Below are positions 2,342 to 22,938 of a stretch of DNA of 22,938 bases, one piece after another (the stretch's first letter is position 1; the number at the start of each line of letters is the position of its first letter). Under the pieces are notes generated by a model. That model saw nothing but the letters and a program-made list of their open reading frames with translations, was not told the origin of the DNA and made no database searches. A program made the position numbers and the translations under genes. The DNA is taken from IMG/VR virus record IMGVR_UViG_3300031227_005837, positions 1 to 22,938 of that record; one strand, written 5' to 3'. Source of the stretch: a virus.

Positions 2342-2665
2342 ATGGAAGAAAACAAAACAAAAACAGGAAAAGTAAAGAAAAACCTATTCAAACCAGGTGA
2401 ATGTCCTAATCCCAATGGTCGCCCTTTAGGTCAGCGTAATTATTCGACTATCTACAAGGAGGCTTTAATTAAGTTAGCTGAAAGTGAAGGCATCACTCCC
2501 GAAGATGTCGAGAATGAATTAATCAAAGGGGGATTAAAGCACGCTAAAAAGGATTATCGTTTTTATAAAGATGTGTTGGATAGATTACACGGTCAAGCTA
2601 CTCAAAAACATGAACTCGACGCTAGTATCAATGTAACTGGCGTAGAAATAAATGTTAGAGAATAA
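2342..2665 (+). CDS. Putative terminase small subunit (DUF5681-like)
   Basis: The small terminase recognises phage DNA and feeds it to the large subunit. Residues 16-33 hold FKPGECPNPNGRPLGQRN, close to the KPGxSGNPxGRPxG motif of DUF5681 proteins, which are commonly encoded just before large terminases. The rest is helical and charged, with a likely oligomer region around YKEALIKLAESEGI. Length (107 aa) is usual. A weak ribosome site, AGGGGAG, lies about 11 nt upstream. Its end overlaps the large-terminase start by 14 nt. The assignment rests on motif plus position. Confidence 0.72.
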   Translation: MEENKTKTGKVKKNLFKPGECPNPNGRPLGQRNYSTIYKEALIKLAESEGITPEDVENELIKGGLKHAKKDYRFYKDVLDRLHGQATQKHELDASINVTGVEINVRE

Positions 2666-4110: not shown

Positions 4111-4412
4111 ACAAATTAGATTTAAAAACTGTCCCTAAGTTAAAGCCAAACCCTGTCTTTAAAGGGTTGCCAGATAACTTAAAAGACCCCAAGACCTTTA
4201 AGAAGGTAGAAAAGAAACTAATCAATGCTATTTTCTCCGATCACAAGCACGCCACCGTTAAGGCTTACCTGAAGTGTAAGCGATGTCAGGATAAGTTTAA
4301 GAAGCGACAAGCCTTCATTAAAGATTTGGGATTTACAAGTTATGAGCAATACACCGAGTGGAAAAAAGTGATGACGATTATTGATAATAAAAAAGACTTC
4401 CAAGTAAAATGA
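4107..4412 (+). CDS. Basic hypothetical protein with CxxC
   Basis: The GTG start overlaps the previous stop (GTGA) and the end overlaps the next start (ATGA), so it is clearly part of the operon. The 101-aa product is rich in Lys. It has one CKRC (57-60) after a His pair (DHKH, 45-48) and then a helical region that ends KVMTIIDNKKDFQVK. The one CxxC could pair with the His residues or with another chain. I recognise no family. Confidence 0.72.
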   Translation: MNKLDLKTVPKLKPNPVFKGLPDNLKDPKTFKKVEKKLINAIFSDHKHATVKAYLKCKRCQDKFKKRQAFIKDLGFTSYEQYTEWKKVMTIIDNKKDFQVK

Positions 4413-5864: not shown

Positions 5865-5902
5865 TGTAGGAACTAATTATTAACTCGCAGAGGCAGAACC
5901 TG

Positions 5903-5933
5903 GCGATTAAGTGAACGCTTAATTGCTATTTTT
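5903..5933 (+). terminator. Hairpin with T tract just before a start codon
   Basis: GCGATTAAG (5903-5911) pairs with CTTAATTGC (5918-5926), nine pairs with one G-T, over a 6-nt loop. TATTTTT follows, and the ATG of the next gene abuts it. It can be an intrinsic terminator or attenuator, or a stem that controls ribosome access. A small hairpin may lie upstream (5886-5905). Confidence 0.5.
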
Positions 5934-6242
5934 ATGCCAAAGACAAAAGTTCCTAAGAAAGTTCCTAAGAAAGTAATCAAAGAGGACTACAAAGAGGACT
6001 ACACAGTCACCGCTAAGATTTTTGGTAGAGATTACTCCGCAACTGGCTCAACTCTCATTGAAGCCCTTAATAAACTAGAGATTAGAAACGCTAAAGGTAA
6101 GTGTATTTTAATCGTGGAGAAAGGTAAGAAGAAAAAAGAGGAGAGGATTTTAATGCCTGCCTTAACCTATAGACTATTCAACACCTTAGGAATATCAAAA
6201 GAGGTGTCTATTAAAAATGTAAGTTTAATGTTTGGATTATGA
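5934..6242 (+). CDS. Basic hypothetical protein before portal
   Basis: The ATG follows a T tract without a Shine-Dalgarno site. The 102-aa product begins with a Lys/Pro-rich tail that was grown by two in-frame 12-bp duplications (KVPKKVPKK and KEDYKEDY). The body (TVTAKIFGRDYSATGSTLIEALNKL, broken here by a beta-turn-like ATGST) looks like a small alpha/beta domain, ending in KEVSIKNVSLMFGL. Its stop overlaps the portal start (ATGA), so it may be produced together with the portal. I do not recognise a family. Confidence 0.72.
   Translation: MPKTKVPKKVPKKVIKEDYKEDYTVTAKIFGRDYSATGSTLIEALNKLEIRNAKGKCILIVEKGKKKKEERILMPALTYRLFNTLGISKEVSIKNVSLMFGL
5949..5972. repeat. 12-bp in-frame tandem duplication
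   Basis: GTTCCTAAGAAA is present at 5949-5960 and at 5961-5972, encoding VPKK twice. Confidence 0.9.
5979..6002. repeat. Second 12-bp in-frame tandem duplication
   Basis: AAAGAGGACTAC is present at 5979-5990 and at 5991-6002, encoding KEDY twice, only six bases after the previous repeat. Confidence 0.9.
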
Positions 6243-8075: not shown

Positions 8076-8309
8076 ATGAAAAACGAATTAAAAACAGCAA
8101 AAATCCAGCAATTCCTCAATGACGAAGCAATGTCTGAAGCCGTCAAAGAAGAATTACTATACTCATTCCTGAGTGGAAATTCCAAAGATGTCCAATATCT
8201 AGCCGCCTCACGCATTGCCATTGATTTATTAAAGGAAAGTTGGAAAGATTTACAGAAATACAAGCAGTCACAAGAAAATGTTAAAACATCAGGCCAAATT
8301 GGTCTGTAA
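8076..8309 (+). CDS. 77-aa helical hypothetical protein
   Basis: ATG at 8076, 20 nt after the portal stop. The product is helical and charged (TAKIQQFLNDEAMSEAVKEE, then ASRIAIDLLKESWKDLQKY). There is no signal peptide, membrane segment or Cys. Its place after the portal suggests a head-assembly helper or a minor component, but the sequence alone does not establish that. Confidence 0.65.
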   Translation: MKNELKTAKIQQFLNDEAMSEAVKEELLYSFLSGNSKDVQYLAASRIAIDLLKESWKDLQKYKQSQENVKTSGQIGL

Positions 8310-8346: not shown

Positions 8347-8742
8347 ATGAAGAAATACATTATAGCCATCGCTCTCATTTGTATAATCGGTCTTGGAGTT
8401 GGTTATTTAGTCTCAACCAATCAGGCTGTTGGAAGTGTTATTCAGGGAAATGAATACAACTCAACTACCACTTCAGCCTCGTTCTTAAATCACTCTGTTC
8501 TAAAGACTGGTCATGGTTCACTGGCAAATGTTGTTATTACAGGGACTAATCCTGCCGCAATAACCTTCTATGATGCGACCACTACTGATGCCACCAAGAG
8601 AACTAAGGCGGCAACGACCACATTAGCTTCATTCCAAACGACCGCGACCCCTAATTCTTATCCAATCGATAGTAATTTTAGTGACGGACTCCTTGTTGAT
8701 TTTGGAGGTGGAACTGGATCGACAACAATTACTTGGCGTTAG
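8347..8742 (+). CDS. Membrane-anchored or exported Thr-rich beta protein
   Basis: The N-terminus, MKKYIIAIALICIIGLGVGY, is a signal peptide or anchor (hydrophobic core about 4-22). The rest is Thr/Ser/Ala-rich and beta-like: LANVVITGTNPAAITFYDATT, then TTTLASFQTTATPNSYPID, and DGLLVDFGGGTGSTTITWR. A short domain with a V(V)ITGT strand followed by IT(F)YDATT is frequent in small phage decoration proteins, to my recollection, so this could be a head-decoration fold with an added export signal. It sits between portal and scaffold genes. The leader is A/T-rich (AAATTATAAATTATG) without a Shine-Dalgarno. Confidence 0.72.
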   Translation: MKKYIIAIALICIIGLGVGYLVSTNQAVGSVIQGNEYNSTTTSASFLNHSVLKTGHGSLANVVITGTNPAAITFYDATTTDATKRTKAATTTLASFQTTATPNSYPIDSNFSDGLLVDFGGGTGSTTITWR

Positions 8743-8777
8743 TATTATAAATTATTATAAGTTTAACAATTAATAAC

Positions 8778-8945
8778 ATGTCTACATTGAATAAAGCTCG
8801 TATGTCCTCGCTCAAAGATAAGCTCGATGAATTATCAGAAATCGAGAAGGTCGAGAAAAAAGTTAAAGAAAAGAAAGAAAAAATCAAAGATGAAGTGAAA
8901 GAGGAGGAGGAAAAGTTAAAAAAAGTTACAAAGGTCAAAAAATAA
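8778..8945 (+). CDS. 55-aa charged coiled-coil protein
   Basis: ATG at 8778, TAA at 8943-8945. After a short MSTLNKARMSSLKD start, the product is nearly all Lys and Glu in heptad-like order (LDELSEIEKVEKKVKEKKEK, then IKDEVKEEEEKLKKVTKVKK). It should form a long, soluble coiled coil. Its place among exported small proteins and before the scaffold gene fits an assembly helper or linker. Low-complexity codons (many AAA/GAA) make a chance frame possible, but its A/T-rich leader (AATTAATAACATG) is like that of its neighbours. Confidence 0.6.
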   Translation: MSTLNKARMSSLKDKLDELSEIEKVEKKVKEKKEKIKDEVKEEEEKLKKVTKVKK

Positions 8946-8969
8946 AATTATAAGATTAATAAAATAATT

Positions 8970-9491
8970 ATGAAAACAAAAAATTTAGTTATAACGTTAG
9001 TGGTTATCGCCGTCATCGCTCTTGCTGGTTGTGTCTTACCTATTAGTGATGGTGGACAAACCATTGTAGAGAAAATGGTCGGAGCAAACCCAGGTCCAGA
9101 GTCAACAAACTCTTACCAATGTTACGCTGGTGTTTGCACCCACTACGCAAACTCTGCTCTTTACAAGGCAACATCAACCCCTTGCTCGTTTATCTCGCCT
9201 AGTGCGACATCATCACTTGCTTTTGCCTCGATAAATATTGATGTTGCTACTTCAACGGCAACGGAGTGGGTACTTGCGACATCAACACAAATGAACGCAA
9301 CCTCATCAGCAACCGCTCTAGTCACAAATTTGCTAGCTTCAGGTTCAAGGGGGAACTTCAACTATGTTGGTGTAGTGGATAATAATATCTTGCCACCAAA
9401 TACCTATGTTACTTGGGGTGTAACAGGAATACTAAAATATACAAGCACTTACCTTACGGGAAGTTGTAGTGCTGTGTTTATCGAAAATTAA
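8970..9491 (+). CDS. Putative lipoprotein, Thr/Ser-rich
   Basis: The N-terminus MKTKNLVITLVVIAVIALAGC ends in a lipobox, LAGC (18-21), so C21 is likely lipidated after export. The mature part has four more Cys in the region YQCYAGVCTHYAN and around STPCSF and GSCSAVF. It is rich in Ala, Thr and Ser (ATSTATEWVLATSTQMNATSS), a style I associate with surface proteins of Patescibacteria. It is encoded between portal and scaffold genes, an odd place for a lipoprotein. Superinfection exclusion or changed host-surface contact are possible roles. No family is recognised. Confidence 0.75.
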   Translation: MKTKNLVITLVVIAVIALAGCVLPISDGGQTIVEKMVGANPGPESTNSYQCYAGVCTHYANSALYKATSTPCSFISPSATSSLAFASINIDVATSTATEWVLATSTQMNATSSATALVTNLLASGSRGNFNYVGVVDNNILPPNTYVTWGVTGILKYTSTYLTGSCSAVFIEN

Positions 9492-9510
9492 CTTAACAAA
9501 TTAACTTAAC
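9485..9510. repeat. 13-bp perfect tandem duplication over a stop codon
   Basis: AAATTAACTTAAC is at 9485-9497 and 9498-9510. The first copy contains the TAA stop (9489-9491) of the lipoprotein gene; the second lies after it. Confidence 0.9.
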
Positions 9511-9526
9511 GGGGTTATCACACCCC
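9511..9526 (+). other. Small hairpin before scaffold gene
   Basis: GGGGT (9511-9515) pairs with ACCCC (9522-9526) over a 6-nt loop. There is no T tract, so it is not a typical terminator. It follows TTAAC, as do the mini-hairpins near 490 and 627. About 60 nt separate it from the scaffold ATG. Confidence 0.4.
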
Positions 9527-9586
9527 TCAAAAGTGAAGTGCGTTTATGATTAACCGTTCAATAAATCAAGTAAAAAACATATCATT

Positions 9587-10150
9587 ATGGATAATGAAAA
9601 CGACAATATCGTTGAGTCTGAAAACAACGAAATAGAAGGAGAAGGAAACGAGTCAGAGAAAGTCTCCGTTCCTAAAGAGGATTACGAGAAACTAAATCAA
9701 ACTCTTGGCTCACTTAAAAGGGAAATCAAGGACTTGAAAAAGCCCAAAGAGGAATCCAAAGAAGAAACTCCTACAGAAAACCAAAAACAACCAGATAATA
9801 ATTTGTTAGAAAAGACTTTCCTTCGAGCGGCTCAAATTACCGCAGAAGATGAAGTAGAATTTGCTCTTTCCACAGCTAAAAAATGGGGAGTAGAGATTGA
9901 CAAGCTAGTTGATGATGAGGATTTCAAAGTAAAACTTGAGAGAATGAGAACTCAGAAATCTAACGAACTTGCCACCTCCGAAATTAGAGGAAGCTCTGGT
10001 TCCCCGCAAACGAAGAATACTGCCGAGTATTGGATTGCTAAAGGCGTCCCGCCAACAGTAACCGATGTCCCCGACAGGAAAGCTCGTGCCAAGATTGCGA
10101 GAGCAATGATGGCTAACACCAAGAGTGGAAAAAAATTCTACAACGAATAA
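9587..10150 (+). CDS. Scaffolding protein (putative)
   Basis: Scaffold proteins shape the prohead and then leave. The protein has an acidic, disordered N-terminus (MDNENDNIVESENNEIEGEG), a coiled-coil-like segment (YEKLNQTLGSLKREIKDLKK, about 33-52), a charged linker and a basic C-terminus (KARAKIARAMMANTKSGKKF), which is how scaffold proteins bind capsid subunits. It lies directly before the major capsid gene, the usual place. Length 187 aa fits. A capsid protease is unlikely as no catalytic motif is seen. Confidence 0.75.
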   Translation: MDNENDNIVESENNEIEGEGNESEKVSVPKEDYEKLNQTLGSLKREIKDLKKPKEESKEETPTENQKQPDNNLLEKTFLRAAQITAEDEVEFALSTAKKWGVEIDKLVDDEDFKVKLERMRTQKSNELATSEIRGSSGSPQTKNTAEYWIAKGVPPTVTDVPDRKARAKIARAMMANTKSGKKFYNE

Positions 10151-10201
10151 AGTCACAAACAATTATCTGGTCTTATCAGAATTAAGATTGAATAATTACT
10201 A

Positions 10202-11068
10202 ATGGCTTACTCAAATACAATAACCTACTCCACACTATACGAGGATATTCTCCAAGATAGACTTGACCATCCAACTACTTGGAAGGAGATGTGTGATGTC
10301 ACAATCACCGATACTCGGGTCATTTCTTCTTCGTATATGTCAACCACGCCTTCTGTCCAGTCTGTAACTCGTGGTACTGGTCATGAAATGCAAGTCTTCA
10401 TTGAAACCGCTGAGACCTTAACAATCTCAACTGGTCGAGACTTAGGTTTGTTTGTTGATTTTGCTGACCTAGCTCAATCACCATGGACAAAACCAGCTGA
10501 ACTCTTTGACCGAATTGGTGCTTTACTCAATGAATACATTGAAGGTGCTGTTTTGTCTCAACACGCTTCTTGGACTAACTTCGATAATGCCTCTATTGGC
10601 GGTGGTGCTGGTAACATTACCGTTTCCGCCTCCAACATTGATGACATTATCCGTGGTATTAAGCGTGAAATCCGTGAATCTAATGGCCAATCTCAGATGA
10701 ATATGAATGGCGTTGGCTTCGTCTGGCGTGCCGCTGACTTCGAGCTTCTCGAAGCTTTTGTTCAAGCTAATGGTTTTGAAACTGCCGACAAAGCTCTCAA
10801 AGATGGGACTGTCGAAGGTCTGCATTACCTAGGTTGTGATCACTACTGGTCAAATGACCACACTTCTGGTCACGTTTTTGCTGGAGTTAAGAAAATTCAA
10901 CGACTTGGTATCCTACGAGGAACTTATGGTCGTGCTCATACGATTGACTTCCCAGCTGGAGACACTAACTCTTTCCTCTCAGGTAAAGCATTCTACTCTC
11001 GAGTAGATGTGGGACACCTAACACCAACCGCTCATGCGGGTTTGGTTTTTGATGTTCTAGTTGCCTAG
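10202..11068 (+). CDS. Major capsid protein (putative)
   Basis: The 288-aa product follows the scaffold gene and has the mixed pattern of an HK97-fold coat: a long N-terminal arm (TITYSTLYEDILQDRLDHPT), a helix and strand mix around SPWTKPAELFDRIGALLNEY, a Gly-rich loop (GGGAGNITV), and beta-rich C-terminal parts (GRAHTIDFPAGD, HAGLVFDVLVA). Codons differ from the neighbours, with more CGT, GGT, CTC and GCT, as expected for a strongly expressed gene. A long hairpin lies right after it, fitting an abundant, separately stable mRNA. A start without a Shine-Dalgarno (GAATAATTACTAATG). Confidence 0.78.
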   Translation: MAYSNTITYSTLYEDILQDRLDHPTTWKEMCDVTITDTRVISSSYMSTTPSVQSVTRGTGHEMQVFIETAETLTISTGRDLGLFVDFADLAQSPWTKPAELFDRIGALLNEYIEGAVLSQHASWTNFDNASIGGGAGNITVSASNIDDIIRGIKREIRESNGQSQMNMNGVGFVWRAADFELLEAFVQANGFETADKALKDGTVEGLHYLGCDHYWSNDHTSGHVFAGVKKIQRLGILRGTYGRAHTIDFPAGDTNSFLSGKAFYSRVDVGHLTPTAHAGLVFDVLVA

Positions 11069-11077
11069 AGCTAGTAG

Positions 11078-11134
11078 TTTATCCCCTTTGCTTTGAAGTT
11101 TATAACGTAATTCTTCAAGGCAAAGCTGGATAAA
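11078..11134 (+). other. Long hairpin after capsid gene
   Basis: TTTATCC (11078-11084) pairs with GGATAAA (11128-11134), and CTTTGCTTTGAAG (11086-11098) pairs with CTTCAAGGCAAAG (11113-11125) with a single T-G pair. The loop is 14 nt. No T tract follows on the + strand (TTAAAAATAAAAAA instead), so it is more likely an mRNA end-protecting or processing stem than a clean terminator. Confidence 0.65.
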
Positions 11135-11153
11135 TTAAAAATAAAAAATAATT

Positions 11154-11894
11154 ATGTCAATACAGTTTAGCGATACAACAAACAAAAACGGGATTATCCA
11201 AAAGATTGAAGAAACCTGTGGTTTTGATGATGCTGGAATTAGTGACAACACTACTTTACTAGCTCAATTTACAGGTAATATCAATACAACCGTTGACCAA
11301 ATTCTTGGCTTTATGTTCCCACGAGGCGGAACATGGCAATTAGATGACGCCAATCACACCGATTATCCGATTATCTTTGCCAATATAGTTTCTGGGCAAA
11401 GAGATTACACCTTTTCCACCGATGAGGACGGAAACTACATTTTGGACATTGAAAGGGTAATGGTATCTGATGAAAATGGGGTCTTTGGTGACTTGAAACG
11501 GATTGACCAACAAACACCAGATAGCGATGTGGGGATTGTTGATGGACGGGACTTGACGGGAGCTCCTTATGCTTACGACAAGACTGCTAACGGTATTTTA
11601 CTTGAGCCAATTCCTGATTTTAGTTATACAGCAGGATTAAAAGTCTTTATCAGTCGTGAAGCGACTCGTTTTCTAACTACCGATACAGCAAAAGTCCTTG
11701 GCTTTGCTCACCTTTACCATGAATATCTAGTCCTCCGACCATCTTATATCTATGCTCGTAATAATTCCTTGACTAATGTTGATAGATTAAAGCGAGACAC
11801 TAAAGAAATGGAGGAAGAAATTAAAACCTATTTTGAAACTAGGCAAAAAGATGTCAGAAACATTATGAAACCTAAAAAAATACTCTATGTCTAG
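11154..11894 (+). CDS. Head-tail connector-like protein (putative)
   Basis: The 246-aa product follows the capsid gene, where neck and adaptor proteins are usual. It has a helical start (IIQKIEETCGFDDAG), a beta-rich middle (IVSGQRDYTFSTDEDGNYIL) and a helical end (RLKRDTKEMEEEIKTYFETR). This order (helices, beta middle, long C-terminal helix) resembles connector proteins of short-tailed phages. No specific family can be named. The start has the A/T-rich AATAAAAAATAATTATG leader. It overlaps the next gene by 8 nt. Confidence 0.6.
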   Translation: MSIQFSDTTNKNGIIQKIEETCGFDDAGISDNTTLLAQFTGNINTTVDQILGFMFPRGGTWQLDDANHTDYPIIFANIVSGQRDYTFSTDEDGNYILDIERVMVSDENGVFGDLKRIDQQTPDSDVGIVDGRDLTGAPYAYDKTANGILLEPIPDFSYTAGLKVFISREATRFLTTDTAKVLGFAHLYHEYLVLRPSYIYARNNSLTNVDRLKRDTKEMEEEIKTYFETRQKDVRNIMKPKKILYV

Positions 11895-12102
11895 TTGGAC
11901 AAATCAAGCAAAAAATAGCAGTGGGGCGTTCTTTGACATCGCTGCTTTTGGCACTGCCAAATTTAACACTTGGACAAATCAAGCAAAAAATTCGTCAACT
12001 ATTACCAATTTAAGTAAGTCGAGCAGTGGTGCTTTCTTTGATATTGCAACATTTGATAACGCAAAATTCAATGTTTGGACTAATCTCGACAAAAGTATAT
12101 GA
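11887..12102 (+). CDS. WTNQAKN-repeat small protein
   Basis: The 71-aa product has two related units: WTNQAKNSSGAFFDIAAFGT with AKFN, and WTNQAKNSS, then SSGAFFDIATFDNAKFN and WTN. Such Trp/Asn/Ser beta-type repeats with TNQxKN occur in phage tail or collar proteins, to my recollection. The DNA of the repeat is exact over 22 bp, so the duplication is recent. ATGA joins it to the next gene, a tail fibre with a signal peptide, and the two could form one complex. Confidence 0.68.
   Translation: MSSWTNQAKNSSGAFFDIAAFGTAKFNTWTNQAKNSSTITNLSKSSSGAFFDIATFDNAKFNVWTNLDKSI
11895..11991. repeat. Exact 22-bp direct repeat inside a gene
   Basis: A 22-bp sequence starting TTGGACAAATCAAGC lies at 11895-11916 and again at 11970-11991, 75 bp apart (25 codons, in frame), and encodes the WTNQAKN motif twice. 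Confidence 0.9.
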
Positions 12103-13223
12103 AATATTTAGTCACATTCGTTTTACTAGCCCTCCTTCTAACCAGCGTTGCCTCTGCCGGACAATTTGATAGAGATAGAATGGACGTTAATGAGGGAATT
12201 ATTAGTAATTTAATTACTTCTATCAAGGCAAAACTGGGTTTTATTCCTAAATTATTGGGAGCAGGTAACGTTTTTCCAACAACCTTAAATAATTGGAGCT
12301 CTGGGGATACTATCACTTCAGCGTGGGCAAACACCTTGGAAGATAAAATCGGGGCAGATGGCTCAGCAATTATTACTTCCTTGGATTATATCGTTAGTAC
12401 CTTAGTCGCCACGACTTCAATTCCAACATTAGATGTTACTTCTTCTCAGGTTTCTGATTTTGATGCTTCGGTCAATTCTTATGTTCACTCATCAACGACA
12501 ATGGTTAAAACCTATGTTCAACCAACCTTTAGTGTCGTTCCAAAATCAAGTGTTTCTTGCGCCGCCACAGGTGAGCTTTGTGACTATGATTATGTTAATG
12601 CTCAAACTTCGGCAGGGGTCTCATCCTCAACCCCAACTCTCGCTGGTAAAGGTAAATTATCAGTAACGGCTGATGATGTTAATGACCCTATCTTTGTCGG
12701 GGACAATGATATTCGGGTAGAAAATTATACTCAAGTTGTTTCAACTTCTAGTGATACTTTTGTTTTTAATGGTGCTGGTTATGGGACAACAACCTTATCA
12801 GGTATTCCTTTTGGGACTTCCACTGTTTTTGAATTTAATGCTTCATCTACCCGTCCCAGTGCTGAAAACACAGTATTCGGGGTGAGGTTTAACGGTGATG
12901 ATACATCTACTTATTCTTGGAATATTTCTATCTTAACAGGAGGTAGTGTTGCTACTGGTGGGGCTGCGAATAATGACGGGGCAGTTTCACTTCAGTGTGA
13001 CAATTTTTGTTCTTATAGACTTTCTCTTGTTAATTCAACTTCCTCGGTTAAAACAGTAATCGTTAGTGGAATGACATATAATAGTACAAACGACCCCGTC
13101 CATTCAATAATTGGTCAATTTGTTTGGAAAAACACAACTGCCTCAGTTAATAAGATTGAGATTGGACCGCATACACACAATACAGTGGGGACTTCAACTT
13201 TAAGAGCAATTGTATTTAAATAG
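12099..13223 (+). CDS. Tail fibre-like protein with a signal peptide
   Basis: Residues 1-20 (MKYLVTFVLLALLLTSVASA) form a good Sec signal with a cut after ASA. Next comes NNWSSGDTITSAWANTLEDK, a motif of phage fibre N-terminal regions (SGDxIxSxxxNxL), then a stretch SQVSDFDASVNSYV like fibre shaft segments. The remaining Thr/Ser-rich beta part has single Cys residues (SCAATGELCDYD, LQCDNFCS) and may bind a receptor. It is unusual that a fibre should be exported; the segment could instead be a membrane-active N-terminus. It overlaps the previous gene (ATGA) and is followed by a small coiled-coil gene. Confidence 0.75.
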   Translation: MKYLVTFVLLALLLTSVASAGQFDRDRMDVNEGIISNLITSIKAKLGFIPKLLGAGNVFPTTLNNWSSGDTITSAWANTLEDKIGADGSAIITSLDYIVSTLVATTSIPTLDVTSSQVSDFDASVNSYVHSSTTMVKTYVQPTFSVVPKSSVSCAATGELCDYDYVNAQTSAGVSSSTPTLAGKGKLSVTADDVNDPIFVGDNDIRVENYTQVVSTSSDTFVFNGAGYGTTTLSGIPFGTSTVFEFNASSTRPSAENTVFGVRFNGDDTSTYSWNISILTGGSVATGGAANNDGAVSLQCDNFCSYRLSLVNSTSSVKTVIVSGMTYNSTNDPVHSIIGQFVWKNTTASVNKIEIGPHTHNTVGTSTLRAIVFK

Positions 13224-13243
13224 ACAACTAAAGACTATAACAA

Positions 13244-13519
13244 ATGGACGAACTACAAAAACAAATCAATGAATTAAAAGAAAGAACCAAAAAACTTGAG
13301 GAGAGTTCTAATTACTCCTTTTCCGAAGGAATGAAAGACCGTTTCTTTGAAAATTCGGTTATAGTTGCTGATTTTGACACTTCTGCTACGACAAAAGTTA
13401 TAAGTTTAACTGGTGGTCCACAAAACATTACCGTAGTTGACCAAAGTAAATTACCAAAAGTCGCAGGTACACTGACTTTAGTTTATAAGGGAACAAGATA
13501 TAAGTTACTCTATGAGTAG
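13244..13519 (+). CDS. Small coiled-coil plus beta protein
   Basis: The 91-aa product starts with a coiled coil (MDELQKQINELKERTKKLEE) and continues as a short beta domain (VIVADFDTSATTKVISLTGG, then TLTLVYKGTRYKLLYE). This shape, coil then beta domain, suits a small fibre or fibre-adaptor trimer. It lies between two tail genes and its end overlaps the next start by 8 nt. Function inferred from position only. Confidence 0.6.
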   Translation: MDELQKQINELKERTKKLEESSNYSFSEGMKDRFFENSVIVADFDTSATTKVISLTGGPQNITVVDQSKLPKVAGTLTLVYKGTRYKLLYE

Positions 13520-15344
13520 ATTCAAAATACCAAATGATGAAAGAAAGTTTAGCCAAGCCAACGATGGTGATGTGGCCGGTAACATTTGGTTATCACAGAA
13601 TCTTGACACTAAGAGTAATAAGGGAAAATTAAGAGTTAGTCCACGATTGGTTGTAAATGTTGCTGATGATTGTGTTGATGGTCTTCATACAGACATCGGA
13701 CGTGTAGTGGCTTTTGCAAAATTCTTTCATACTAAAAATAGTGGGGTTCAGGGTTATTGGGCTGTTTGTGATACCACCCTATTCAAAACAGGTGGTAATC
13801 CAACTAAACCTACTCTTATCTTCGATAAAGATACGATAAGTGGTTCACCAACTGACCTAGAATATGAATCATCAGATATGATTGTTGCCCCTAATGGACT
13901 TCTTGTTTCCACTCACGATGACATTTACTTCTTAAATGATTCAACCACAGCTGATTGGGTTAGTTATTGGAAAACTACATTAAGTCAAACTTTCTCAAAT
14001 GCCTCTGGTTCTCATATGATGGAAACCTTATTTAACCTAACCATTGCTATTTCTGACGGGAATACAATTTGCACGATTGTTTCTCCTTATACTGATACTT
14101 ACGAAACTAAAGCTAAAGTTACTTTGAGAGCTATAGATAAGATTCTATGGATTAAAACTGGTTCAACAAGGGTCTGGGTCGGAACAGTAAACACTACTGG
14201 TGGTGAGGGTTTAGTTTATGAGTGGGACGGAGTAAGTGAGAGAACAGTTAGAGCTTATAAAGTTGGGGCAACTGGAGCATTCGCAGGTCTTGTGAAAGAT
14301 GATGTTCCTTGGATTGTAACTTCTGATGGTTCGCTTAAATATTTCAATGGTTTAGGTTTTGTATTAGCTCCTAATGGACGACTTCCCCATTCTACGACAT
14401 TTTCAATGTTGAAATTAACAGCTACCGGTGTTTTTTATAATAATGACAAGTGGATTCACCCTAACGGAATGAAACTAATTGACGGCAATATCAATCTTTT
14501 AATAAATAACCTTTTAGATGAAGCTACGGATTATACTACTCTAATTGAGAACGAGCCATCAGGTATTTGGGAATATGACGAGAATGTTGGGCTTTATCAT
14601 AAATATTCGGCAACACTAGATACCGCAGGTGCATTAGATAGTGGTCAAAATACGATTGGCTATGCTGGGGCATTGTGGGAAACTAAAAGTAAAGAGGCGG
14701 CATTATTAGCTGGGGTTTCTGTCTATACTGACGATGCCACAACTCTAAAGCACGCCATTTTCTATGACGAATTACCTAATACTATTGCTAAAACTGGGGT
14801 AATTGTTATCCCTTGGCTTCAATCCTTTGAAATTAAGGATGTCTGGCAGAAGTTATGGGTAAAATTCAAGGATTTAGACAATGCTACCGACGAGATAATT
14901 GTTAAATACCGCACCCAAAAAGATAAAGACTTACCAGCCATTTATTCAGCCACTCATACATCAACTACGACTTTTACCATAACCTCTGCTACTGATCTTC
15001 AAACTACAACCAATATCTTAGATGTCGGCAATGAGGTGGAAATAATCATGGCTTCAGGAGCTGGAAAATCAGCTCATATTTCAAGTGTGGCTGTCTCTGG
15101 GACTTATACTTACACTATTACTCTAGACGAAGCAATTTGCCCAGCTTCCGGCACAGGTAAAGTAAGATTTAATAATTGGACAAAACTTGCCACAATAGAT
15201 ACTCAAAATATCACCGAAAAGGTCTTAGCTCTTGGTAAGACATCAGCTGAGTTACAAATTAAATTAGAATTAAGGGGGACAGGAAATAACCCCGAACTTA
15301 ATCAATTAGTCGCTTTATCAGCAACCCAATTACCAATAAAATAA
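13512..15344 (+). CDS. Large beta-rich tail protein, nozzle-like
   Basis: The 610-aa product is nearly all beta, with recurring strand-turn units (WVGTVNTTGGEGLVYEWDG, DDVPWIVTSDGSLKYFNGLG, SDMIVAPNGLLVSTHDDIYF), as in a beta-propeller. The tail nozzle of short-tailed phages (P22 gp10, T7 gp12) is propeller-like and encoded after the connector, so this is a reasonable match in shape and place, but I cannot verify homology. The C-terminal part (IYSATHTSTTTFTITSATDL, IDTQNITEKVLALGKTSAE) looks like a distinct beta domain. It has no signal peptide. Confidence 0.55.
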   Translation: MSRFKIPNDERKFSQANDGDVAGNIWLSQNLDTKSNKGKLRVSPRLVVNVADDCVDGLHTDIGRVVAFAKFFHTKNSGVQGYWAVCDTTLFKTGGNPTKPTLIFDKDTISGSPTDLEYESSDMIVAPNGLLVSTHDDIYFLNDSTTADWVSYWKTTLSQTFSNASGSHMMETLFNLTIAISDGNTICTIVSPYTDTYETKAKVTLRAIDKILWIKTGSTRVWVGTVNTTGGEGLVYEWDGVSERTVRAYKVGATGAFAGLVKDDVPWIVTSDGSLKYFNGLGFVLAPNGRLPHSTTFSMLKLTATGVFYNNDKWIHPNGMKLIDGNINLLINNLLDEATDYTTLIENEPSGIWEYDENVGLYHKYSATLDTAGALDSGQNTIGYAGALWETKSKEAALLAGVSVYTDDATTLKHAIFYDELPNTIAKTGVIVIPWLQSFEIKDVWQKLWVKFKDLDNATDEIIVKYRTQKDKDLPAIYSATHTSTTTFTITSATDLQTTTNILDVGNEVEIIMASGAGKSAHISSVAVSGTYTYTITLDEAICPASGTGKVRFNNWTKLATIDTQNITEKVLALGKTSAELQIKLELRGTGNNPELNQLVALSATQLPIK

Positions 15345-15355
15345 TAATAAATAAT

Positions 15356-16729
15356 ATGCCACCACTAAAAAAAAGCGAAGAGGGTTTAGTTAAACTAAGT
15401 GAGAACTACTCCGTTAATCCCCAGTTTCTTTCTCAGGAAGGGCTACAATCAGCTCAATCTTTTGCAAGTCAAACACCTATTATTTCGTCGGAAAGTTTGG
15501 CTCAAACCCAACCGATGAACTTAGCTTCAGCCCCCGTCTCCACTACCGCTTCAAGTGTCGTGGCTCAATCGGGGAATTTGGCTGAATTAAATCAAGATGT
15601 GGCTACCAAACAAGCAGAATCACAAGCTAGTCTTGGAGAAGTGACCAATTTAATGACCCAAATAGGTGGTCAAAGAGCAGAAGGTCTATCTTTGGCTGAA
15701 TCTAGTGGTTTAAATGAGAAAAATAAACAAATTGCGGAAAATAATGCCGAGATTTTAGCTCTTAGGAATGCTACTAACCAAGAAAAAGAAAGACTAGGTA
15801 AAGTCCCTGGCATGACCCAAGTCGGACTTCGGGGTATATATAATGATATAGATACTCGTAATGCTTTCAAAATAACTAACCTAGAAATGCAGAATGCTTT
15901 TACTTCTATCAATGCTAACTCTTTAATGAAATCAATCGAAACCCAACTTGCTTTAAAATACGAACCACTAGAAACCCAGCTCCAAATTGCCCAAATGAAT
16001 TATCAAAACAACAAAGACTTATTTAATAAAGCCGAACAAAGACAATTTGAGACAGCACAATTTGAACGGAATGCCCAACTAAACCAACAAAAGCAAGATG
16101 ACGAAAGAAAGTATGACTTATTAAATGTCGCATTAGATAGGGGTATTCAATTACCAGCAGATATTATCTCTTATGCAAATAAGGAGGGGGTAACAGCTCA
16201 AGACTTACAGGCCAAGATGGCCCAAAGGGGAATTAGTTTAGCAAAGCCAGAAGATCCACTAGATAGGCAGCTTAAACAGGCTCAATTAGCTAAACTTAGA
16301 GCTCCTGGTGGCGGTGGAGGCGATGGAGTTTCAAGTGAGAAGCCAATGAGCATTGGTCAAATTGAGCAATTTAGACGAAGTTATGGCTGGACTCCCCCAT
16401 TTGGCTTTACTTTGTCACAATTAAATCAATATATTGCGGACAATCCAAATGCCACCAAAGAAGAATTACAAGCGGGAGCAAATTCAATAGGGGGAGTGGG
16501 TGTGACTGGTGAACAAAAAGAAAAAGACGAGAAAGCAATTAGAGATCAACTCTCAACGGTAGAGCTTAAAAAGCTATCAGATTGGGCTGGCACTTCTAGG
16601 TGGTGGCGACATAAGACTCGTGATGTAAATGACTTCTTTAAAAGGGCTGATGAAGCACAATTAAGCCAGATTAAAAGTGCGATTGACTTCGGTTATCCGA
16701 TAGAGGAGATTATTAGTTTTTTGAAATAA
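15356..16729 (+). CDS. Internal virion protein-like, Gln-rich helical
   Basis: The 457-aa product has a disordered N-terminus, Ser/Gln/Ala-rich, then long coiled coils (LNEKNKQIAENNAEILALRN; YNDIDTRNAFKITNLEMQNA; LNQQKQDDERKYDLLNVALD). A Gly run (GGGGGDG, near residue 318) separates an ordered C-terminal part with TSRWWRHKTRDVNDFFKRAD and the end PIEEIISFLK. It precedes the 1266-aa protein by one base. In short-tailed phages such pairs of helical proteins are packed in the head and ejected with DNA. The start leader is AATAATAAATAATATG, no Shine-Dalgarno. No enzyme motif is seen. Confidence 0.55.
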   Translation: MPPLKKSEEGLVKLSENYSVNPQFLSQEGLQSAQSFASQTPIISSESLAQTQPMNLASAPVSTTASSVVAQSGNLAELNQDVATKQAESQASLGEVTNLMTQIGGQRAEGLSLAESSGLNEKNKQIAENNAEILALRNATNQEKERLGKVPGMTQVGLRGIYNDIDTRNAFKITNLEMQNAFTSINANSLMKSIETQLALKYEPLETQLQIAQMNYQNNKDLFNKAEQRQFETAQFERNAQLNQQKQDDERKYDLLNVALDRGIQLPADIISYANKEGVTAQDLQAKMAQRGISLAKPEDPLDRQLKQAQLAKLRAPGGGGGDGVSSEKPMSIGQIEQFRRSYGWTPPFGFTLSQLNQYIADNPNATKEELQAGANSIGGVGVTGEQKEKDEKAIRDQLSTVELKKLSDWAGTSRWWRHKTRDVNDFFKRADEAQLSQIKSAIDFGYPIEEIISFLK

Positions 16730-16730
16730 A

Positions 16731-19700
16731 ATGGCTTTAAATTTATCAGCACTACAACCCAGAAAAAGACAGGGAACTCTGGACACTACGGCTTTATCTA
16801 CTCCACGTCAAAAAAGTGGTGGTGATATTGTTGATATTTTCCTTAACACAGTTAGGGGTATTCCTAGTGCGGTAAATAAACTATTCTTTGAGCAAGAAAC
16901 TGCTCCCCAGAGATTTCTTAAAGAGATAACGGGGTTTCGTTCCCCAGCCGAAAGACAAAGAGATTTATTAGCTCAAAGTCGTGCCACCCGATTACCGAAA
17001 AAAAGATTAGACAGATTTGGTTTACCGATTGCTACACTTGGCAAGCCAACTAGAGGAGAGAGGGAAATTTTAAAAACTGCTACCCCACAAGAACAGGTTT
17101 TATTAGCCAGAGAGGGTGCAATTATGGCAGCAGGATTTGCTGGTTTCGCCCCACAACGAAAACTTTTAACGGGCGTGGCTAAACAAGTCGCCAAATCTAG
17201 CGATATTCAAGTTATTGCCAAACTTATTAAAAAGGAAGTTCCTGAAATGACAGATGATGTGGCCACGAAGTTTGCCACTATCTTTAAGGATTTAAAGAAT
17301 GTTCGACAAGTTGATACGGCCATCAATAAGATTAAGTTTCAATATGTAAAACCTAAAGCTCCAACCAGAGCCCCAACAGGTGTCGTTACTAAAGCCCTTG
17401 AAACCAAGCTACCCACAGTTACGAGTAAAGGGGTTGCTATAAAACCATCTCCCCTCATCCAAGAAGCAAGGAAGTATAAGAGTGCGGAGGAGTTTGTGAA
17501 AGATTTTAATAGAAATGTATCAACAAGAAGCCAAAGCAGACCAGATGGGGTTGACATTGGAATGGATAATTTTGTTAATTCCCTAGATAATAGACCCGCG
17601 ATAAGAACATTTGACAAAGGTGGTGGATATGACAGAGGAAATACAGATATACTCAAATATGTTCCTGCTAAAGATGCAAAAAATATAAAAGCATATTTCT
17701 CTGATGGAAAAGTTCCTGAAGAAATAATAGTATATCGTGGAGGGGGGAAAAGAGTTAGTGGAGAATTGAGAGATGGAGAATACCTAACGACAAATAAAGG
17801 TGTTGCTCAAGCATACGGAACCAAATTTAAAGAATTTAAGGTTAAGACGAAAGATTTATTATTTGACCCGAAAGAGGCAGTAACGGACAGTTCTGGCAAC
17901 AATCAAGGTGTTGTAGTTTATAACCCAGACCATAGTTTAGCGAAAGTAAATAATTACTTAAAAGAAAATAATACTACACTCACTGACATCTATAATAAGG
18001 CACAAGAGGTTAAACCATTAGAAGAAATCTTTACACCAAAAGTCCGCCAGATAAAAACATCAGCGGAAATACCATCACTAGAGAAGACTGTGGAGGGGAT
18101 TAAGCTCCCAGAAAGACAGCCAGTAGCACGATTGCCAGATACAACCCCAGAAGTTCAAAAAGTCTCATATGTTAATGATACAATAAATGAGACAAAGGTC
18201 AATAATGAAATATACAAAGTTGTGGAAAACAGAGATGTCACTAATACTGTTAAAGATGTCTCTACTACCCCACCAGAACCAGCAAGTGACCTATTAACTA
18301 CTCGTAAAATCAAGCAAACTGAAGGATGGAAGGACTTTGCTAAGTATGCTGAGGAGAATTTACAAGAAAAAGACATAAGCCCAGCGATTGTTTTCCGACA
18401 CGCAACAATGACAATGGAAAGGGTGGCTGAGTTCTTAGATGGTGGAATTGGTGGTCGGACATATCGAGAGATTGTCAAACCAGTTTATGACTCGGCTAGG
18501 AAAATGGCAGATGAGGGAAGTATCATTAAAAACGAGGTGGGGAGTTTTCGTGTCTTAGAGGGAAGCTCTATTGACCGTGATGCTTCACTCTTTGCTCAAA
18601 AGAAAATCACCGATGCTCCTGAAAAATCCAAGGAAATCGCTAAATACATAAGAGGTAAATATGACGAACTGATTGAGCGTTTAAATGAGACTAGGGTAAA
18701 AATTGGCATTGAGCCATTCCAAAAAAGACAAGACTATATTACTCACATAAACGAAATTAATGTCCTATCAGAATTGTTTGGAGGAATGGAAAGGATCTCG
18801 GTTAAACGCCATATTAGTAATTTAAAGTCAGAATTACTAGACGCACATCCAGATTGGACTGATGCTAGGGCTTTTGATGCCGCCAAGCGACAAGTGGAGG
18901 GATTGACTGGGGTTGCTCAATATGTAGATGCTCGTCAACCAATCTTTAAGTTTGCCAAACAACGATTGGGAGAATATGAATCTGACCCAAGTATTACTAG
19001 GTCTTTTAATGCCTATCTTTCAAACGCCTTACGTTATATCTATCAAGCCGAAAATGTTGCAAAAAATAAAGCTCTTAAAGATGTTTTGCCCGCTAACGCG
19101 AAAGAGTTTACAAGATTATGGAATACCGAACAAGTTGCTGGACGACAACCCCCATCATTTCTAAGTCCAGTTGCGAAACGAGCACTATCTGCCCTTCGTG
19201 GCACATTGGGGGCTAACACTATTGCTGGCAATTTATCAACGACAATGATGCAGTTGACATCATTTCCACAGGTCTTTGCTTTAGCTGGCCCAGTCAATAC
19301 TTTTTATGGAATCGGTAGCCAATTACGCTCATACATCCCTGGTCTAACTAATATGTATAAATCATCTCGGACAAAAGCCCTACGTGATTTAGATATTGAT
19401 ATTGGTCTCGGAGATAGTCTTATTGACCAATTACTCATTAAGATTGGTAAACACAACAAGATACGAAATACCTCGGCTCGGACAAGACTCGCAGTTGATT
19501 TAGGGAGGGACTTTACGGCTGGCATTATGAAAACTGCCGACCAATTTACCGTTGGAGCTTCATACCAAGCATTTTACCGTAAGGGTCTTATGGATGGCTT
19601 AGAACCAGCCGAGGCGATGGAGTTTGCTGACATTATGGCTGGCAAGACCCAAGCTAATTATTTCAAGGAAGCCCTACCACCATTTCTAAATACCATTGAG

Positions 19701-20531
19701 GGTAAAACACTTGGTCAATTTGGCACTTATGGGATGAACCAGTGGGAGCTATTTAAGAGAGACTTTGGAAAAGATTTTAAGTTTGATGAAAAAAATCCCA
19801 AGAGTGTTAAGAATTTCTTTAAACAATTTATGGTCTTTCTAACCTCTGCCTATCTGGTTGACTCTATATCAGAAGATACCTTTGGTCGCCAACCCTATGA
19901 TGTCAAGAGTCTCGTTGATGATTCAGTTGGTTTTGCCAAGGGCGAATTGACTAGCGGGCAATTACTTGACACCTCAAAAGAAACCATCAGTTCGTATATC
20001 CCGTTTATGAGTAGTGTTAAATTTAATTCTCTACCCCCAGTTGCTGAATTTGTGAAGGATGTTATTAACGCTGTTGTTGGGACTGGTGATAAACAAGAAA
20101 AATCAACTAAAAACCTTTCAGAAAAGTGGTCGTATAACATACTCTTACCTTATGGTGGAAACCAGTTAAGAAAGTCGTTACAGGGAATAGAGGCATCCGC
20201 AAAAGTTGATTTACCGTTTGTTCGTAATACTTCTAAGAATCTCGATATACAAAACAACCTTGACCAAGCTAAATCTATTCTGTTCGGGCCTTATGCCACC
20301 GAAGAATCAATCAGTTATTTTGAAAACCAAAAGAGAAGGGAGGGTATAAAGGAGCAATATGAAATAACTGGAACAATCACCAGCGATGAAAACATTGCCA
20401 AATTAGACAAGATGTCTGATGAAGAATTTGATATTTACACAGACCAATATGCAACCTCAACAAAAAAGACAATAAATAATAAGATGGGGAAAAGTAGTCG
20501 CCCATCATTAGAAAGTATATTTTCACGATGA
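16731..20531 (+). CDS. 1266-aa internal virion protein with ADP-ribosyltransferase-like segment
   Basis: This is the largest gene and the best candidate for an ejected internal protein. It is helical and Lys/Arg-rich at the N-terminus. Residues about 245-405 form a distinct insert with VPEEIIVYRGGGKR (R336) and DGEYLTTNKGVAQAYG (T353/T354), which matches the Arg of strand 1 and the S/T-x-S/T of ADP-ribosyltransferases, as in polyvalent phage proteins; I see no clear ExE motif, so activity is uncertain. The C-terminal half is helical with hydrophobic stretches (TIAGNLSTTMMQLTSFPQ, then VFALAG; FMVFLTSAYLVDSI) that could insert in a membrane on ejection. The start has no spacing from its neighbour and ATGA links it to the next gene. 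Confidence 0.7.
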   Translation: MALNLSALQPRKRQGTLDTTALSTPRQKSGGDIVDIFLNTVRGIPSAVNKLFFEQETAPQRFLKEITGFRSPAERQRDLLAQSRATRLPKKRLDRFGLPIATLGKPTRGEREILKTATPQEQVLLAREGAIMAAGFAGFAPQRKLLTGVAKQVAKSSDIQVIAKLIKKEVPEMTDDVATKFATIFKDLKNVRQVDTAINKIKFQYVKPKAPTRAPTGVVTKALETKLPTVTSKGVAIKPSPLIQEARKYKSAEEFVKDFNRNVSTRSQSRPDGVDIGMDNFVNSLDNRPAIRTFDKGGGYDRGNTDILKYVPAKDAKNIKAYFSDGKVPEEIIVYRGGGKRVSGELRDGEYLTTNKGVAQAYGTKFKEFKVKTKDLLFDPKEAVTDSSGNNQGVVVYNPDHSLAKVNNYLKENNTTLTDIYNKAQEVKPLEEIFTPKVRQIKTSAEIPSLEKTVEGIKLPERQPVARLPDTTPEVQKVSYVNDTINETKVNNEIYKVVENRDVTNTVKDVSTTPPEPASDLLTTRKIKQTEGWKDFAKYAEENLQEKDISPAIVFRHATMTMERVAEFLDGGIGGRTYREIVKPVYDSARKMADEGSIIKNEVGSFRVLEGSSIDRDASLFAQKKITDAPEKSKEIAKYIRGKYDELIERLNETRVKIGIEPFQKRQDYITHINEINVLSELFGGMERISVKRHISNLKSELLDAHPDWTDARAFDAAKRQVEGLTGVAQYVDARQPIFKFAKQRLGEYESDPSITRSFNAYLSNALRYIYQAENVAKNKALKDVLPANAKEFTRLWNTEQVAGRQPPSFLSPVAKRALSALRGTLGANTIAGNLSTTMMQLTSFPQVFALAGPVNTFYGIGSQLRSYIPGLTNMYKSSRTKALRDLDIDIGLGDSLIDQLLIKIGKHNKIRNTSARTRLAVDLGRDFTAGIMKTADQFTVGASYQAFYRKGLMDGLEPAEAMEFADIMAGKTQANYFKEALPPFLNTIEGKTLGQFGTYGMNQWELFKRDFGKDFKFDEKNPKSVKNFFKQFMVFLTSAYLVDSISEDTFGRQPYDVKSLVDDSVGFAKGELTSGQLLDTSKETISSYIPFMSSVKFNSLPPVAEFVKDVINAVVGTGDKQEKSTKNLSEKWSYNILLPYGGNQLRKSLQGIEASAKVDLPFVRNTSKNLDIQNNLDQAKSILFGPYATEESISYFENQKRREGIKEQYEITGTITSDENIAKLDKMSDEEFDIYTDQYATSTKKTINNKMGKSSRPSLESIFSR

Positions 20532-21331
20532 GTATTCCCAAAGAAAAACTTAAAGAATTAGTCCTAGCCACCGCAATTAAGAAACTGCGGGGTGATCTTG
20601 ACGACTTAAAGGAAAAAGACAAAGGGGACAAAGGAGATACGATTGTCGGCCCAGTTGGCCCTCAAGGTCTTCAGGGTGGAGATGGAAAATCAATTATCGG
20701 CCCGAAAGGGGAAAAAGGTGTTTCTGGCAAGGACGGCAAGGACGCAGACCCCTTGAGGACGGCCGAATTGGCCTCTAAAATCGCTCAGGACGCATTAAAA
20801 CCACTTATCCCTACGATTCCGCAGATTAAAGAAGAATTACCACTTACAGGCGAAAAAATCCGAGATAATCTAGAAGATTTAAAAGGTAAAGAACGACTAG
20901 ATAAAAAAGCAATTCGGGGACTTGACGACCTTGAAAAGAAGGTTGACAAGAATAAAAACGGTGGAGTTCGGGTGATCGGTGGCCGAGCGGGAATATACCT
21001 TTATGTTGACGGTGAAAAAAAGGGTTTAGTCAATACGGTCAACCTAATCGCTGGCACGGGTATAACTTTAACTTATGCACGGGAATTTGGCAGAAACGAC
21101 ATTACTGTCAGCAACGACAGTGTTGCAGGCACAGTTTTGGTGGCAACAGGAACGGTTGATGGGGCAAATGCAGACTTTACCTTTACTAAAAAGCCCTCTG
21201 TTATTATTACTGATGGGGTCGCCTATCAGGAGACCAATAAATTAGGGGAAACAATTTGGACGTGGACGGCTGGAACACTCACAGCCACATTAACAATTCC
21301 CCCACAAAGTGATGTTTATGGATTATCGTAA
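20528..21331 (+). CDS. Collagen-like tail fibre protein
   Basis: Residues 33-73 carry broken Gly-X-Y repeats (GDKGDTIVGPVGPQGLQG and GPKGEKGVSGKDGKD), which form a collagen-type triple helix in phage fibres. A helical, coil-like segment precedes and follows them. The C-terminal part, GAGIYLYVDG-like (GRAGIYLYVDGEKKGLVNTV) then NLIAGTGITLTYA and DITVSND, is of the kind seen in fibre distal domains, ending in a beta domain (LVATGTVDGANADFTFTKKP). ATGA joins it to the previous gene. A trimeric fibre, perhaps a stalk for the next protein, is likely. Confidence 0.8.
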   Translation: MSIPKEKLKELVLATAIKKLRGDLDDLKEKDKGDKGDTIVGPVGPQGLQGGDGKSIIGPKGEKGVSGKDGKDADPLRTAELASKIAQDALKPLIPTIPQIKEELPLTGEKIRDNLEDLKGKERLDKKAIRGLDDLEKKVDKNKNGGVRVIGGRAGIYLYVDGEKKGLVNTVNLIAGTGITLTYAREFGRNDITVSNDSVAGTVLVATGTVDGANADFTFTKKPSVIITDGVAYQETNKLGETIWTWTAGTLTATLTIPPQSDVYGLS

Positions 21332-22938
21332 GTATATTTTAATAGGTTTACTCTTAATTCCTTTAGGGGCGGTGGCTATTAACGTCTCAATTCCGCAAGC
21401 TACTCAATATGGTCAAATCCCAGCTGGACTATCGACTGGTAATTATACTCCTGTGGCTACTTCCACTTTAGGTCTCCCCACTTTTACCTATTTACTAGAT
21501 ACTTTAACTTGGCATATCGTTGGTGGAAAACTCACCCCCACCTCGACTATTGATATTCTGGCTTCACAAAATATGGAAGTGCCAGCCGGTAGTTACTATA
21601 AATACAATGGCACTAATCTCGCCTTTGCTTCAACGACTAAATTTAATTACTTCTTTGGTGATGCTGGCAACTTAACTGCGACTGGAAGATATAATGTCGG
21701 TTCAGGTTATTGGACATTACACGACCTGACTTCTGGTGAAGGTAATACTGGAGTTGGCTATCAAGCATTACGAAGAATGACCACAAGTGACGGTAATGTT
21801 GCTGTTGGACGCTACGCCATGAGAGAGGGTGTTACTGGCACGAATAATGTCGCCTTAGGTTCTTATGCACTTCGCTACAATGACGGTGGTTCTCGTAATA
21901 TCGGAATTGGTTACAATTCTATGAATGGAAACACTACTGGGAATGACAATCAGGCAATCGGTGACTCTGCCCTAACTTCAAATTCAACAGGTTATCAGAA
22001 CGCCGCTATTGGCTCTTGGGCTTTGATTCTAAATGAAGATGGCTATAACAATACCTCTATTGGTTATTATTCAATGCAAAAAAATATCTCTGGTCATAGT
22101 AATGTTGGGATTGGATATAAGGCTGGTGATAAAAGCACTGGTGACGGTAATACCTATATCGGTTTTGAGGCTGGCGCTCAAGCTGTCGGTGATAACAACA
22201 TCTTTGTTGGTATTGGGGCTGACATTGCTTTAACCTCCTCATCTTCTGATAATGTTGTGGTGATCGGCAATAACGTTGAAGCCGATTGTGAAAATTGCTT
22301 AATTCTTGGAGGGGCAAATGGTAGCGGTCAAGCCGTTAAGGTGGGTATTGGCACAACAACTCCTAATACGGGTTTTGGTTTAACAGTCGCTAGCACCACC
22401 GCCTTAATGGGCTATACACATATTGGTTCATCTGTCGTCTCCGTGCCAATTTATGACAATTACCTCCTAGATATTGAGGGAGATTTAGATAGCTACCTAT
22501 CAACGACCATGATTAACACTAATGCTGGAACAGCGGCTAGTGCTGACTTCATTATGAATAATGACGAAGATGAAAGCCTTAGTTATTTTGATATTGGTTA
22601 TGGTAGCTCAAATTATACAGATAATGCTGTTTCTCCAGGTGAGAATTATCAAGGTTACATATTCAATAGTTTAGGGCCAATCTCATTAATGACGGCTGAA
22701 GACCAACCAATTACTTTCCATACTGAATATGAAGACCGAGTGCAAATTGATGGTGATGGCTTAACTGTTTACGGCACCTCGACTCTGGCGACCACCACAA
22801 TGGCTTTTGATTCACAAATTGGTGATGGTTCAACTTATATGGCAGTAGAGGAGTGGGATTGGAATGGAGGTGTAGTTGGTTCAGTTCCTTTAATAAGATT
22901 TGTTTCGCCAACATTTGCGCAAGGTGATTATTGGGGTG
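21318..22938 (+). CDS. Receptor-binding fibre with beta-roll repeats and signal peptide (partial)
   Basis: The gene runs off the window with no stop. ATG at 21318 (or 21312, in frame, two codons earlier) overlaps the previous gene's end. Residues 1-20, MDYRKYILIGLLLIPLGAVA, are a signal-like segment. From about 21735 to 22310 come about ten repeats of 16-18 residues of the form NxxxGxxA(L/M) (NVAVGRYAM, NVALGSYAL, NIGIGYNSM, NQAIGDSAL, NAAIGSWAL, NTSIGYYSM, NVGIGYKAG), like the YadA-head beta-roll of trimeric adhesins and phage fibres. Then GIGTTTPNTGFG, a motif I associate with Patescibacteria surface proteins, and a domain with SADFIMNNDEDE. It probably binds the host surface. Confidence 0.82.
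   Translation, partial: MDYRKYILIGLLLIPLGAVAINVSIPQATQYGQIPAGLSTGNYTPVATSTLGLPTFTYLLDTLTWHIVGGKLTPTSTIDILASQNMEVPAGSYYKYNGTNLAFASTTKFNYFFGDAGNLTATGRYNVGSGYWTLHDLTSGEGNTGVGYQALRRMTTSDGNVAVGRYAMREGVTGTNNVALGSYALRYNDGGSRNIGIGYNSMNGNTTGNDNQAIGDSALTSNSTGYQNAAIGSWALILNEDGYNNTSIGYYSMQKNISGHSNVGIGYKAGDKSTGDGNTYIGFEAGAQAVGDNNIFVGIGADIALTSSSSDNVVVIGNNVEADCENCLILGGANGSGQAVKVGIGTTTPNTGFGLTVASTTALMGYTHIGSSVVSVPIYDNYLLDIEGDLDSYLSTTMINTNAGTAASADFIMNNDEDESLSYFDIGYGSSNYTDNAVSPGENYQGYIFNSLGPISLMTAEDQPITFHTEYEDRVQIDGDGLTVYGTSTLATTTMAFDSQIGDGSTYMAVEEWDWNGGVVGSVPLIRFVSPTFAQGDYWG

Follow-up and report, generated by a model that had tools for sequence, protein, structure and literature searches.

Why should a tailed phage, whose particles are understood to be built in the cytoplasm, place export signals on proteins encoded among its head and tail genes? 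The question is raised by a whole IMG/VR record of 22,938 bases (the window), in which an earlier note had singled out five proteins, named here by the first base of their genes (960, 8347, 8970, 12099 and 21318). The phage belongs to an uncultured family of short-tailed type. Genes for the terminase large subunit, a portal-like protein, a 77-residue protein, 8347, 8970, a scaffold-like protein and a capsid-like protein follow one another; behind these lie genes for the tail, for two large proteins and for two fibres, first one that is collagen-like and then 21318 (Table 1). A near-identical longer record, G001 (31,560 bases), carries the same genes. The positions of 8347, 8970, 12099 and 21318 are referred to below as slots A, B, C and D. 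Gene calls are based on the longest open reading frame and the loci are metagenomic.

Table 1. Features of the window and, where a locus or record is named, of its relatives; a slash marks a putative cleavage point
Feature	Position	Strand	Remarks
Secreted protein	960..1589	+	putative signal peptide (AQA/I), His-rich repeats (VTHxxT..DTPA)
Terminase large subunit	2652..3938	+	PF04466, E 1.6e-25
SET-domain protein	4409-4888		PF00856, E 5e-7
Sulfotransferase-like P-loop start	4885-5406		GVGRSGTS; no Pfam match
Terminator-like hairpin	5901-5928		12 pairs, just ahead of gene 5934 and upstream of portal
Portal-like protein	6239..8056	+	named from location, size and conservation; weak PHROG match (E 0.09)
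77-aa protein	8076..8309	+	immediately after the portal gene; kept in relatives
Slot A	8347..8742	+	putative anchor ~residues 4-22, short linker, VGS junction, 8-stranded beta domain
Small charged protein	8778..8945	+	between slots A and B; recurs in relatives
Slot B	8970..9491	+	putative anchor ~residues 6-25, linker, VGANPGPE junction, beta-sandwich, Cys pair C72-C166
Scaffold-like acidic protein	9587..10150	+	named by place and composition
Major-capsid-like protein, 288 aa	10202..11068	+	most conserved protein; query for relatives
Slot C	12099..13223	+	putative signal peptide (SVASA/G) and fibre-like protein, among head/tail genes
Collagen-like fibre	20528..21331	+	no signal; marks the slot D position in relatives
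Slot D	21318..22938	+	putative signal peptide (GAVA/I) and tail-fibre/spike-like repeats; phrog_6002, phrog_4636
Slot A insertions	L086 slot A; L098 3909-4541; L100 1747-2826; L107 6643-8121; L085 3254-4297
Glycine-rich proteins	L017 record 21813-22715; L032 record 33235-34263; L026 record 13610-15469; L073 record 22541-24394
HNH-like genes	L013 2884-3429; L014 record 13932-14489; L022 6760-7260; L085 5170-5796
Integrase	L055 3769-4854 (G007)		phrog_1, E 3e-41

The names portal, scaffold and capsid rest on place, size and conservation, and databases do not recognise these proteins. The capsid-like protein matched nothing in Pfam, PHROG or PDB, nor HTVC010P in a profile comparison, and neither it nor the portal-like protein had a match in phage records (0 for each). 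It is 68-87% identical across contigs in which the proteins encoded next to it often share no more than 30-60% identity. Among other features of the head region, the SET-domain protein between terminase and portal, unusual inside a phage head block, is found in nearly all relatives at 46-55% identity, while the protein with a sulfotransferase-like start is found among relatives in G001 and G006 (51% identity) only. Free-standing HNH endonuclease-like genes lie between the scaffold and capsid genes of several relatives.

All five of the reading frames in question are present and have plausible starts; the ATG of 12099 overlaps the preceding stop codon (ATGA), and the 21318 gene starts within the last bases of the collagen-like one. 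A Sec-type n-region and hydrophobic core are present at each N-terminus, with Lys or Arg ahead of the hydrophobic segment. Signals were called throughout by one hydropathy rule, calibrated on control phages, rather than by a trained predictor. The best 12-residue hydropathy near the N-terminus is 3.16 for 960, 3.36 for 8347, 3.40 for 8970, 2.87 for 12099 and 2.66 for 21318, with residue-shuffle p values of 0, 0, 0.0005, 0.0025 and 0.001, respectively. The 19 other tested proteins of the window all score 1.04 or less, with p of at least 0.17, and so never reach the range of the five (2.66-3.40, p ≤ 0.0025), whose export-type starts are thus borne out. The residues that follow make 960, 12099 and 21318 look like proteins with cleavable signals. 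The uncharged stretches of 8347 and 8970 are longer than in those three, and their segments, like those of their type in relatives, look like uncleaved membrane anchors. Behind the hydrophobic segment the fraction of charged residues is 0.06-0.13 in 8347, 8970, 12099 and 21318, compared with 0.19-0.38 in signal-free proteins of the window. The earlier note had also marked a lipobox in 8970. The LAGC is indeed present, but homologues carry GYFFP, GWVMP or TGLFLP at this position, without a Cys, so that a lipoprotein is unlikely.

Relatives were sought with the capsid-like protein, which found 31 directly, and then with a profile, from which 80 of 166 loci were kept; counting was done on 61 non-redundant contigs having both portal and capsid. 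In 49 of these 61 at least one hydrophobic N-terminus is encoded between portal and capsid or just after the capsid, and in 41 at least two. Such N-termini are found in 91/158 non-core genes of the portal-capsid region, in 61/728 genes elsewhere and in 1/323 core genes; a stricter rule gives 78/141 for the region against 37/628. The enrichment by gene position has a Fisher p of about 3e-40, a value that ignores shared ancestry. By family, slot A proteins of the anchored type are positive in 27/27 cases and the slot B types in 43/43, against 0/19 for signal-free families, and hydrophobicity is kept at the N-termini although the sequence diverges. The signals of 8347, 8970, 12099 and 21318 are positionally conserved, that of 12099 in a minority of relatives; 960 has a homologue only in G001. 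The feature is also present in two probably complete relatives of 41.6 and 37.6 kb that have terminal repeats. Of 57 control proteins from the morphogenesis regions of T7, P22, lambda and HTVC010P, the one positive is lambda Lom, and none of six deposited fibres or spikes that share the 21318 repeats starts with a hydrophobic segment. These controls agree with the premise that virion proteins of tailed phages normally lack Sec signals.

Proteins of slots A and B share a layout in which ~8-45 linker residues lead from the anchor to an [LVF]G[AS] junction, with the outer domain behind it. Among 90 slot proteins, the motif [LVF]G[AS]..G.[DE] occurs in 50, compared with 11 in shuffles; the net charge of the first 12 residues is at least +1 in 78, and the uncharged stretch is most often 18-21 residues long, a full membrane helix. 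Together, the net-positive N-termini and the length of this stretch imply N-in, C-out anchors. One slot B protein (L070) has a peptidoglycan-binding domain (PF01471, E 3e-11) between signal and junction, which would place that part outside the membrane. The opposite topology, with the domain inside as in a membrane-based prohead assembly, is disfavoured by the positive N-termini and the peptidoglycan-binding domain. It is also doubtful that [LVF]G[AS] is one cleavage site, given the spread of linker lengths and the presence of this domain within one linker.

The outer domains appear to be exchangeable. Two slot B families have in common only a 21-residue stretch behind the anchor (LGAxPGPDxY...F.NG; hhalign E 1.7e-8) and differ completely beyond it, suggesting a constant anchor module with exchanged outer domains; slot A has several outer domain types too. 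Confidence in the structure models is moderate (mean pLDDT 76 and 71). Fold searches with slot proteins returned generic beta-sandwich matches only, those of slot B including weak CBM-like and Kgp adhesin-domain matches; in L069 a Laminin_G/ConA-like domain is found on a signal-bearing protein. When the 90 anchored slot proteins were compared with Pfam, PHROG and NCBIfam, 89 matched no family; Pfam and NCBIfam each matched one, via a single peptidoglycan/cell-wall type domain (PF01471; TIGR02869), and PHROGs gave single-member matches, mostly to endolysins. All-against-all alignment of the slot proteins was useful for batch scans only. A search of 380 genomes from the phylum to which a Parcubacteria MAG containing a relative belongs gave no convincing cellular homologue of slots A and B. 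Two weak matches, to an L,D-transpeptidase-like and a large unrelated protein, were judged to be chance, and a cellular origin was set aside.

The fibre motifs ascribed to both 12099 and 21318 hold for the latter, whose motifs match 100 cultured or deposited phage records, many annotated as tail fibre or spike. These include fibres or spikes of HTVC111P and Escherichia phage P817, which share its repeats; unlike 21318, the six checked counterparts start without a hydrophobic segment. The 21318 gene runs past the end of the window and also past the end of G001. By contrast, 12099 itself has no family match in Pfam or PHROG, and is called fibre-like from its position and N-terminal pattern. Its counterparts in relatives have a signal or anchor, a junction and then a fibre-type N-terminal pattern, and that of L018 has a Tail Collar domain (PF07484, E 1e-17). 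Of 28 genes that follow the collagen-like one, 21 have a signal, and the cleavage pattern of slot D in relatives is often xYA/AP. Extra glycine-rich, signal-bearing proteins are encoded behind the fibre gene in relatives.

The best explanation of these features appears to be export and display at the cell surface. Fibre- and decoration-type proteins of the head/tail block would be made with Sec-type N-termini. In slots A and B an uncleaved signal-anchor would leave the beta-sandwich outside the cytoplasmic membrane of the host, while slots C and D would encode fibres that start with a signal peptide or an anchor. Export to the host envelope, as the earlier note had suggested, is supported by the charged N-termini, the full hydrophobic helices, the L070 domain and the slot D cleavage sites. 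It is also in keeping with the low charge and Ser/Thr-rich composition of the after-anchor domains, and with a Cys pair that is invariant in slot B type 1. From these sequence features, the slot domains are probably translocated. Synthesised late with the head genes, they may coat the exterior of the infected cell, where exported binding domains could occupy or mask surface receptors, so that superinfection is prevented and progeny do not stick to the cell or its debris. If export is granted, masking has roughly an even chance of being right. The whole chain, from export through a late surface coat to masking, is put forward tentatively, at somewhat short of an even chance.

A model for such masking is provided by T5 Llp, a small exported phage protein that is held in the envelope and shows that receptors can be blocked in this way; superinfection-exclusion proteins of this type are described as early (PMC9586334). 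Llp is a lipoprotein, whereas homologues of 8970 lack the Cys of its lipobox-like motif, and the likeness drawn here is an analogy of possible action. It counts against masking that the slot genes lie in the head block, where no promoter or terminator clearly belongs to them, whereas Llp-type proteins are early. A parallel in gene position is lambda Lom, a signal-bearing protein of the late tail region encoded just after the tail gene J. Lom is known to be exported and is assigned by its annotation to the outer membrane of the host, unlike the slot proteins, which are of beta-sandwich or fibre types on N-terminal anchors, are encoded between portal and capsid, are usually paired and have swapped outer domains.

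Curbing confidence in a purely cell-surface role are, mainly, signal-free sisters of slot A. Homologues of the slot A protein are anchored in 27 contigs and anchor-free in 13, and never both in one contig; the two forms are homologous (hhalign E 5e-5). On the portal tree, changes between them need at least 8 steps, so the anchor is repeatedly gained, lost or swapped. A related soluble protein (31% identity between the soluble forms) is encoded behind a P22-like portal gene in Podoviridae sp. ctNMl277 (MW202483). Like the anchored proteins, these signal-free forms occupy the slot behind the portal and have the homologous beta domain, but they lack anchor, linker and junction. That anchored and signal-free forms never occur together suggests two alternatives for a single role, and the P22-like portal context points to a role in the particle; both count against surface display alone. 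The signal-free sisters thus argue for a domain that was at first a component of the particle, or remains one. The fibre-type N-terminal pattern kept behind the anchor by slot C counterparts weighs in the same direction. A soluble slot B family (A6) has no detectable homology to the anchored type, and a signal-free counterpart is therefore shown by homology for slot A only. In some relatives the signal-free slot A protein has large repeated insertions within the beta domain, of up to 492 residues.

These observations bear on the chief rival to surface display, in which the exported proteins join virions after release. Capsid and tail core would be built inside the cell, decoration proteins and fibres would be Sec-exported and tethered outside the membrane, and the two would come together during release or later, whether or not [LVF]G[AS] is cleaved. 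The siting of the genes in the head/tail block, the mutual exclusion of the two slot A forms, the Tail Collar domain and the fibre-type N-terminal pattern that follow the slot C anchor, and the excess of the junction motif over shuffles all favour such a scheme. However, we know of no tailed phage that assembles in two compartments, the peptidoglycan-binding domain ahead of the L070 junction suggests retention in the envelope, and linkers of 8 to ~45 residues are unlike one processing site; we regard both the divided assembly and the late joining as unlikely. Within the library of papers searched, none on Patescibacteria phages described such export or post-release joining, an absence that is weak evidence. 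Alternatively, the proteins could stay in the cytoplasm and be packed in virions, which on infection would pass through the host membrane or make it permeable by means of the intact hydrophobic N-termini; use of the segment inside the virion was another option given in the earlier note. Entry proteins with hydrophobic segments are known from virions, and the slot genes adjoin portal and scaffold. The positive-inside N-termini, the canonical cleavage sites of slot D and the Sec-like starts on long fibres, which would have little use for a helix of this kind, nevertheless make this unlikely, and 15356 and 16731 may be other large, signal-free candidates for ejected proteins.

Surface display might instead serve conversion, with adhesins on the infected or lysogenic cell altering its attachment to partner cells, as the earlier note had envisaged. 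The adhesin-like folds (the weak slot B matches to CBM-like and Kgp domains), the signal-bearing Laminin_G/ConA-like protein of L069 and the precedent of Lom, as annotated (for adhesion, see the Lom paper as cited in PMC7067206), are in its favour, as is the integrase in G007, which implies that some members of the family are temperate. Set against these are the position of the genes within the head block, which does not look like one of separate expression, and a host known from MAG binning alone; we consider it very unlikely. Finally, hydropathy rules can misfire, and the N-termini might be ordinary and without meaning. The positional enrichment (uncorrected for relatedness), the conservation of hydrophobicity while sequence diverges, the near-absence of positives among the controls and the strict association with families reduce the likelihood of this to next to nothing.

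As to the host, relatives were found in the MAGs of Parcubacteria group bacterium GW2011_GWB1_40_14 (0.9 Mb), nzgw467 (1.2 Mb, from groundwater) and a member of the Methylococcaceae. From this co-binning the hosts are probably Patescibacteria, tiny parasitic bacteria, which fits the first two MAGs, and an episymbiont host is plausible. A groundwater study with nzgw-numbered MAGs ranks Patescibacteria second in frequency among predicted virus hosts (PMC10980836). Shine-Dalgarno sequences are absent at the starts of 960, 8347, 8970, 10202 and 11154 and in relatives, the upstream regions being rich in A, which stands at -3 and -6, and having T at -1; this may be a clue to the host's translation. 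As a host clue, a Shine-Dalgarno difference between anchored and signal-free phages was looked for, and there is none, the sequence being absent in both.

The presence or absence of an export anchor in the same slot across one phage family offers a natural comparison for what export does. If the hosts are Patescibacteria, these phages would provide a rare handle on how phages face the surface of cells that live on other cells, together with a set of surface-displayed, fast-swapping binding domains.
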